Positions 62,681-64,000 of a stretch of DNA of 64,000 bases are shown piece after piece (positions within the stretch are counted from its first letter, which is position 1; each line of letters opens with the position of its first letter). The DNA is from Miltoncostaea oceani (GTDB lineage: Bacteria; Actinomycetota; Thermoleophilia; Miltoncostaeales; Miltoncostaeaceae): the NCBI RefSeq assembly GCF_018141545.1, contig NZ_CP064356.1, positions 558,001-622,000 on the forward strand. The letters run 5' to 3'. The notes under the pieces were generated by a model that saw only the letters and a list, made by a program, of their open reading frames with translations, was not told the origin of the DNA and made no database searches. The position numbers were made by a program, and so were the translations under genes.

Positions 62681-62809
62681 GCGGTGGCGGCAAGGGAGGG
62701 CAGGCGCGCGACGGCGCTCGCCTCCAGGGATTCGGACCTCTGGATCGCGGCGCGCAGGCCACGGCCGACCCGCGCGGTCGGTCGAAGCCGCGATCGGGCC
62801 AACGGACGA

Positions 62810-62852
62810 TGGGCCGTGTCGGGCTCGAACCGACGACCTTGGGATTAAAAGT
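62810..62852 (-). other. 3' fragment of tRNA-Lys(TTT), probable attachment site
   Basis: Minus-strand sequence from 62852 to 62810 gives the anticodon loop CTTTTAA, the 3' anticodon-stem arm TCCCA, variable loop AGGTC, a perfect T-arm (GTCGG-TTCGAGC-CCGAC), acceptor strand ACGGCCC and discriminator A. The 5' half is absent: the sequence upstream of the loop does not pair. Integrases leave just such a displaced 3' end when they insert into a tRNA gene, and the element should lie on the high-coordinate side. Confidence 0.8.
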
Positions 62853-62861
62853 AGCCGCGGT

Positions 62862-62981
62862 CCGTCTCTGGCCGTCTCGTGGCGCCTCGGGCACCGCGGT
62901 TCCCTGCGGCGTTTCGTGGTCGCGGGTCGCCCGGCCCTCTCGGGCCGTCTCTGCCCGTCTCGTTCCCACCCTGTTCCCACC
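62862..62981. repeat. Short direct repeats beside the att site and initiator gene
   Basis: CCGTCTCTGGCCGTCTCGT (62862-62880) recurs with one change at 62945-62963 (83 bp later); each copy holds two CCGTCTC heptamers. GTTCCCACC is repeated at 62962-62970 and 62973-62981, 11 bp apart. They lie between the tRNA fragment and the initiator gene and could be integrase arm sites or replication iterons. Confidence 0.5.
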
Positions 62982-62992
62982 TCGGCGGGCCG

Positions 62993-63967
62993 ATGAGTGC
63001 GCTGGAGCTGGTGCCAACCCCGCGCGATCCTGCTCTCCGCGCCCTCCTGGAGCGAGGTCTCGCCCAGGCGCACGCCCGCGAGGCGGCGGCGCCCCCGGAG
63101 GCGGCGCCTGAGCAGGTAGAACCCGCTTCCAAGCCCACGGTCCGGCCTATCCCGCGCACGCTCGGCCTCGCCTCCGACCGGGCGTGCGTCGAATCCAACC
63201 TCGCCCGCAAAGGGCTCTGGCGTTCGGGCACGACCAGCGGCGGGGAGCTCGTGCGCCTCCTCGATGCCACCGACCAGCTCGGGACCGTCCAGCGCGTCGA
63301 CGCCGGGCCTCCCCTCGGCGCTCTCGCGTTCGACGTCGTTGTCTGGGCTTGCAGCCGCTGGCGTGAACTCGGGCAGGCCGGTGAGCGTCACGTTCCCTTC
63401 ACTCTCGAGGTCATGGCCACCAACCTCGGCTGGCGGAAGGGCGGCGGTGCCTCCGCTGAGCTTGCGCGGGTGCTCGACACCCTGCGCGGCGCAACCTTCC
63501 GGGCACGGGTCTACAACGCCCGCCTGCAGGAGACGCGGATCGACACCTTCGGCCTCATCGACCGCTGGGAGCGCGGCGAGCCGGACCGTTCCGGACGACC
63601 GGCCCGCGCCGGCTTCCTGGTCCTCGGCGACTGGCTGCACGAGCAGCTCGCGCGCAAGCACGTCACCTTCGTGAACTGGTCAGAGCTCCGCGCGCTGTCG
63701 AGCGGCACCGCCCGCCGCCTCCTCGTCTACCTGGAGGCCGAGCGCTTCACCGGTCCCACGTGGCGCCGGACGATTGACGACACTCTGTTGACGACGCTCG
63801 GCATCGTCGCTGCCAAGCCATGCCACCAGCGCGCCACCCTTCGGCGCGCCGCAATCGAGGTCACGCGAGCCGAGAACCGCTACCTCAGCGTTGGCGTCGA
63901 GCCCGGCAACCAGCGGGGCGTCCATGTCCTGAATGCGCGCCGCCGCAACAGCGCGGCCGACCGGTGA
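62993..63967 (+). CDS. Plasmid/element replication initiator-like protein
   Basis: 324 aa, ATG 62993. Two winged-helix units are suggested: GALAFDVVVWACSRWRELGQAGERHVPFTLEVMATNLGWRKGGGASAELARVLDTLRGATFRAR, then FLVLGDWLHEQLARKHVTFVNWSELRALSSGTARRLLVYLEAERF, in the manner of RepA/TrfA/RPA-type initiators. Amino-acid and codon use is less extreme in GC than neighbouring genes, which fits foreign origin. It would start replication of an excised circular element. Confidence 0.7.
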   Translation: MSALELVPTPRDPALRALLERGLAQAHAREAAAPPEAAPEQVEPASKPTVRPIPRTLGLASDRACVESNLARKGLWRSGTTSGGELVRLLDATDQLGTVQRVDAGPPLGALAFDVVVWACSRWRELGQAGERHVPFTLEVMATNLGWRKGGGASAELARVLDTLRGATFRARVYNARLQETRIDTFGLIDRWERGEPDRSGRPARAGFLVLGDWLHEQLARKHVTFVNWSELRALSSGTARRLLVYLEAERFTGPTWRRTIDDTLLTTLGIVAAKPCHQRATLRRAAIEVTRAENRYLSVGVEPGNQRGVHVLNARRRNSAADR

Positions 63968-64000
63968 CCAGGGCAGCTCGTGCGATCGAACTCGGCCCGG

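Follow-up and report, generated by a model that had tools for sequence, protein, structure and literature searches.

The displaced half of a tRNA-Lys gene at window positions 62810-62852 is very probably the left junction of a 47.8-kb ICE of the T4SS type, which extends over C1:620835-668694. The window is the whole stretch of 64,000 nucleotides that was analysed. It corresponds to G000:C1:558001-622000 in the Miltoncostaea oceani genome, which consists of three contigs and 4.54 Mb. The assignment to an ICE is based on both junctions, the attachment core, the restored tRNA of the empty site, the genes carried and the presence of a homologue at the orthologous tRNA in a genome of the same genus. 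The main features within the window are:

62810..62852, minus strand: left end of the element; the tRNA-Lys(TTT) 3' half originally present in the chromosome, now displaced; its 43 bases are 100% identical to the 3' end of the flank-joined tRNA
62835..62852, no strand: 18-bp attachment core GACCTTGGGATTAAAAGT in the anticodon region; partner at C1:668677-668694, 47,842 bp rightward
62853..64000, plus strand: in-window part of the probable ICE, which runs on to C1:668694; from gene calls and family searches
62858..62963, plus strand: two clusters of CTC boxes with 10-bp spacing, obtained by repeat finding
62962..62980, plus strand: putative left integrase arm sites, GTTCCCAC twice with 11-bp spacing; right pair at C1:668559 and 668571
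62993..63967, plus strand: replication initiator gene, 324 aa, with a predicted RepE/Pi/RctB two-winged-helix fold; from AlphaFold2 and Foldseek

Two integration genes are located at the far end of the element:

C1:667073-667444, plus strand: excisionase-like HTH protein (HTH_17/excise-type), 123 aa; TIGR01764, 2.1e-10
C1:667387-668547, minus strand: tyrosine recombinase, 386 aa; inside the element, with its start about 100 bp from the tRNA

The 43-bp fragment comprises the anticodon TTT with the 3' side of the anticodon arm, a fully paired T-arm and the 3' strand of the acceptor. It is identical to positions 32-74 of the reconstructed tRNA. ARAGORN detected no complete tRNA in the window; the 5' half of the tRNA is thus missing. 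The sequence-only reading had described precisely this, a tRNA-Lys(TTT) 3' half without its 5' half, and had placed it next to repeats and a replication initiator gene. The repeats are indeed there, as CCGTCTC boxes at 62862, 62872, 62945 and 62955 and as GTTCCCAC boxes at 62962 and 62973. An open frame at window positions 62809-63111, starting with MGRVGLEPTTLGLK, is a spurious gene of a known type, produced by translating the tRNA-Lys 3' half.

A genome search with the fragment revealed two related places, a tRNA-Lys(TTT) at C1:668650-668725 and a tRNA-Lys(CTT) at C1:3558684-3558756. The tRNA-Lys(TTT) is intact and located on the minus strand, 47.8 kb to the right of the fragment and in the same orientation. 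It closes an element that had been predicted to lie to the right of 62.85 kb and to end at an intact tRNA-Lys with an integrase. Both expectations were borne out: the tyrosine integrase gene is positioned inside the element beside this tRNA. The further expectation of the same 43 bp at the other end held in part. A second copy exists, but it is inexact: the match is 87% over 46 bp, the 18-bp core being identical and the T-arm different. A homologous chromosome with the same fragment and no insertion had been named as evidence against an element. No such relative was found, and in G001, a genome of the same genus, the fragment adjoins homologous element genes.

The exact core GACCTTGGGATTAAAAGT has only two copies in the 137 kb examined, one at each end of the element. 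Joining the left flank, the core and the right flank in silico produced a complete tRNA-Lys(TTT) in ARAGORN, and the joined element ends produced no tRNA in the same program. Attachment sites are hence defined at both ends by the 18-bp core and by the flank join that restores the tRNA. An intact tRNA at the integrase end and a 3' fragment at the opposite end are the pattern of elements with a tRNA-targeting tyrosine integrase. The empty site is an in silico reconstruction; a truly empty site was not found in a relative. The G+C content is 70.7% in the element and 73.8-73.9% in the flanks.

The integrase matched PF00589 (6.3e-24) and phrog_1 (9.8e-64). Its R, H-x-x-R, H and Y motifs are readable as TGLRVGE, HTLRHT, LGHH and YVHL. 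The excisionase-like gene adjoins the integrase gene, and their 3' ends overlap. In other genomes, genes for relatives of the integrase immediately follow the 3' end of a tRNA gene, and the choice of tRNA goes with the integrase. Relatives with 64-82% identity are found at tRNA-Lys(TTT), those with 59-63% at tRNA-Arg(TCT) or tRNA-Arg(CCT), and those with 51-55% at tRNA-Lys(CTT), tRNA-Lys(TTT) or tRNA-Met. Several other genomes of the family also contain displaced tRNA-Lys 3' halves with their start at the anticodon, which makes this gene a recurrent target. The relatives in the family that bear names are MAGs, filed under Thermoleophilia or Actinobacteria. At locus L053 (G004:C38:21638-23941), a tRNA-Lys(CTT) and a displaced 3' half are only 2.2 kb apart and may represent a very small island or a remnant.

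The two ends of the element share the GTTCCCAC pair. In first-order simulations, an 8-base word occurred twice at both ends in 4 of 20,000 cases. Both ends of the G001 element carry GTTGTCAC twice in place of GTTCCCAC, and other elements have pairs of GTTACCAC, GTTGCCAC or GTTGCCCC with 11-12 bp spacing. These boxes are considered putative integrase arm sites because they differ between elements and agree between the two ends of one element; the integrase would accordingly be expected to bind GTTCCCAC. The CTC clusters, to which the four CCGTCTC boxes belong, are located between the core and the arm sites, upstream of rep. In four related elements with three or more different tRNA targets, the left ends can be aligned at the CTC positions without a gap. 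The boxes are candidate binding sites for Rep and could also be sites for the excisionase or the integrase.

The gene order from left to right is Rep, HmaC, HmaB, HmaA, ParA, SSB, two small regulators, ParB and a MOBF relaxase. After the relaxase follow CBASS, an ArdC-like protein, VirD4, a VirB4-like protein, SCO6880-/SCO6881-like proteins, regulators, an M23 peptidase, the excisionase-like protein, the integrase and the tRNA-Lys. The MOBF relaxase-helicase of 870 aa matched TrwC PF08751 (2.1e-70), NF041492 MobF (206.6 bits, cut-off 100) and the TrwC structure 1omh (1.1e-25). The VirD4 coupling protein was identified by PF02534 (8.7e-38; 130.8 bits, cut-off 20.1). The VirB4-like ATPase matched PF12846 (AAA_10; 33.6 bits, cut-off 27.5) and PF19044 (39.9 bits, cut-off 25.8); with 416 aa, it has about half the length of the VirB4 models and is below the NCBIfam cut-offs. 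The SCO6880 family was matched with 4.8e-94.

The ICE also carries a complete Hma defence locus (C1:622243-632001) between rep and parA. HmaC has a Swt1-type HEPN domain and HmaA a NOV_C domain. The HmaB frame extends upstream of the called start, and HmaB is therefore full length. A CBASS locus at C1:642015-644867 codes for a TIR-SAVED effector, an E2-like protein and a CD-NTase. In the G001 element, the break lies at the position that this locus takes up here. Elsewhere in the genome, three more MOBF relaxase loci (C1:220147, 1158799 and 3179756-3180588), one of them interrupted by a stop, may indicate further conjugative elements.

The replication initiator beside the junction, which had been labelled as such from the window, is supported by its fold. 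Rep has no match in Pfam, NCBIfam, PHROGs or among plasmids and no credible sequence match in the PDB; it was identified only by the fold search. The AlphaFold2 model was calculated with an alignment of 11 homologues and has a mean pLDDT of 75, which is a moderate confidence. In the Foldseek search of the PDB, all 46 matches with E<=0.001 were RepE-type, RctB or Pi initiators. The same genome encodes a homologue (36%) on contig C3, which is 46.6 kb long. The modelled fold suggests a role of Rep in replication.

Integration very probably took place by a recombination, through the tyrosine integrase, between the 18-bp core in the anticodon region of tRNA-Lys(TTT) and the same core in the circular element. 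The 3' half of the chromosomal tRNA was displaced to the far left end. A non-identical copy borne by attP completed the gene at the right end, with the 5' half from the host and the T-arm from the element. Excision would involve the HTH_17/excise-type protein. The excised circle may be replicated by Rep and ParA/ParB, and transfer would require the relaxase and the T4SS. Judged from its genes, the element is apparently self-transferable.

G001 encodes a homologous ICE at the orthologous tRNA-Lys, with 72-90% identity of the backbone proteins. The element is present in two parts:

G001, C1:448259-459908: part 1, with the fragment, Rep, SSB, ParB and relaxase
G001, C1:2851514-2835815: part 2, with ArdC, T4CP and the VirB4-like gene up to the integrase and tRNA-Lys

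Together, the two parts form one complete ICE backbone without overlap. Synteny with the right flank in the window genome was seen for the G001 genes on the far side of the tRNA, and two genes beyond the fragment match the left flank in the same order. The G001 orthologue of a right-flank gene sits away from the tRNA. Gene-for-gene synteny directly beside the tRNA was therefore unusable; it was found a few genes further out. The channel gene of the left flank has no close orthologue in the genus. The split is apparently the result of one large inversion with one breakpoint inside the ICE, between the relaxase and ArdC, and the arrangement is also consistent with an assembly error. IS21-like transposase fragments are located near one G001 breakpoint. 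A long inverted repeat at the two breakpoints was not detected by blastn in the 20-31 kb compared.

The split homologue shows that such elements can be fixed by rearrangement, and the element at the window could likewise be integrated but immobile. We consider this rather unlikely. Both ends are present, the integrase, the excisionase-like protein, the relaxase, the T4CP and the VirB4-like protein are encoded by open frames, and all stem pairs are retained in the displaced T-arm.

The T-arm stem reads GTCGG/CCGAC in the displaced half and CTGGG/CCCAG in the intact gene. Two stem pairs are changed on both sides, and pairing is kept in both T-arms. A tRNA-Lys(TTT) on contig JALHRF010000206.1 (L100), which also holds the right flank of the window locus, has the same 5' half as the window locus and a 3' half that equals the displaced fragment exactly. 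The contig is filed under a Bauldia MAG; its occurrence in this alphaproteobacterial MAG is probably a binning error. The L100 integrase is 80% identical and of the same actinobacterial group. In G001, the T-arm is also of the GTCGG type. For a different genus, g12, a tRNA-Lys(TTT) was recovered from 15 genomes, and every one of them has the delivered T-arm, CTGGGTTCGAATCCCAG.

Degeneration of the displaced copy was rejected as the cause of the T-arm difference, since two pairs are changed on both sides, the stem is fully paired and the copy equals the L100 tRNA. The simplest reading is that the element carried a different tRNA 3' half in its attP and that the 3' half of the tRNA has apparently been rewritten. 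The g12 T-arm may suggest an origin of the element from a g12-like host; the same T-arm could occur elsewhere.

The different T-arms and the 6 mismatches in 46 bp between the fragment and the intact gene would also agree with a fragment left behind long ago by another element or derived from a second, degenerate tRNA-Lys, the intact tRNA and the integrase being an unrelated insertion. This is very unlikely, as the fragment T-arm is identical to that of the L100 tRNA-Lys(TTT), and L100 matches the locus in the 5' flank and in the 5' half of the tRNA. The perfect tRNA from the flank join, the arm-site boxes of one sequence at both ends and the complementary fragment and integrase ends of the G001 element also argue against this reading. 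A prophage or a non-conjugative island, which the phage-type family of the integrase might suggest, is extremely unlikely in view of the MOBF relaxase, the VirD4 coupling protein, the VirB4-like ATPase and the SCO6880/SCO6881-type proteins, and in the subset of proteins searched with Pfam and NCBIfam (three proteins with PHROGs), none was of the capsid, terminase, portal or tail type.

The T4SS-type ICE is thus the preferred interpretation, and this kind of mobile element is well known. T4SS-based ICEs of actinobacteria were defined by an integrase, a VirD4-type T4CP, a VirB4-like ATPase and a MOBF (TrwC) relaxase (Ghinet et al. 2011; PMC3218068). All four are encoded by the present element. 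A Rep is no requirement in this definition, since such ICEs were assumed, with few exceptions, to lack autonomous replication (PMC3218068). In contrast, the present element has an iteron-type Rep gene beside the displaced att end, and its host belongs to a Thermoleophilia-related family. Like AICEs of the pSAM2 type, it is integrated into a tRNA gene and encodes Rep, excisionase and integrase; closely related AICE integrases also use different tRNA genes, including those for Lys and Met. AICEs move double-stranded DNA with a single FtsK/SpoIIIE-like protein and without a T4SS, whereas a relaxase and VirD4-/VirB4-like genes are present here.

Islander maps an island by its two ends, one with an intact tRNA gene and the other with a displaced 3' fragment, and an anticodon-centred crossover is one of its two main site classes (2083 islands; PMC4383910). 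The ends observed here follow this pattern, but the T-arms differ by compensated base pairs and a search for an identical 43-bp repeat would miss the element. The G001 homologue shares the backbone, the tRNA-Lys target and the layout of the ends. It differs in being split in two, in its GTTGTCAC arm sites, in an unchanged T-arm and in other cargo.

A more tentative proposal concerns the ICE lineage as a whole. As it has an iteron-type Rep and ParA/ParB in addition to a MOBF T4SS, it might persist as a low-copy plasmid after excision. In addition, the crossover in the anticodon region might exchange the T-arm and the acceptor 3' strand of the host tRNA-Lys(TTT) for those of another lineage, so that the tRNA would record the donor lineage. 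Literature searches on chimeric tRNAs made by integrases returned nothing relevant.

The bacterial group is little studied. In this poorly sampled actinobacterial class, the exact ends are now fixed for a large ICE carrying two anti-phage systems. Searches for identical direct repeats can miss tRNA-integrated elements, as the half borne by attP may have compensated base-pair changes. The element ends provide a comparative data set for the arm specificity of the integrases and its evolution, and the two T-arms are a testable record of the origin of attP.
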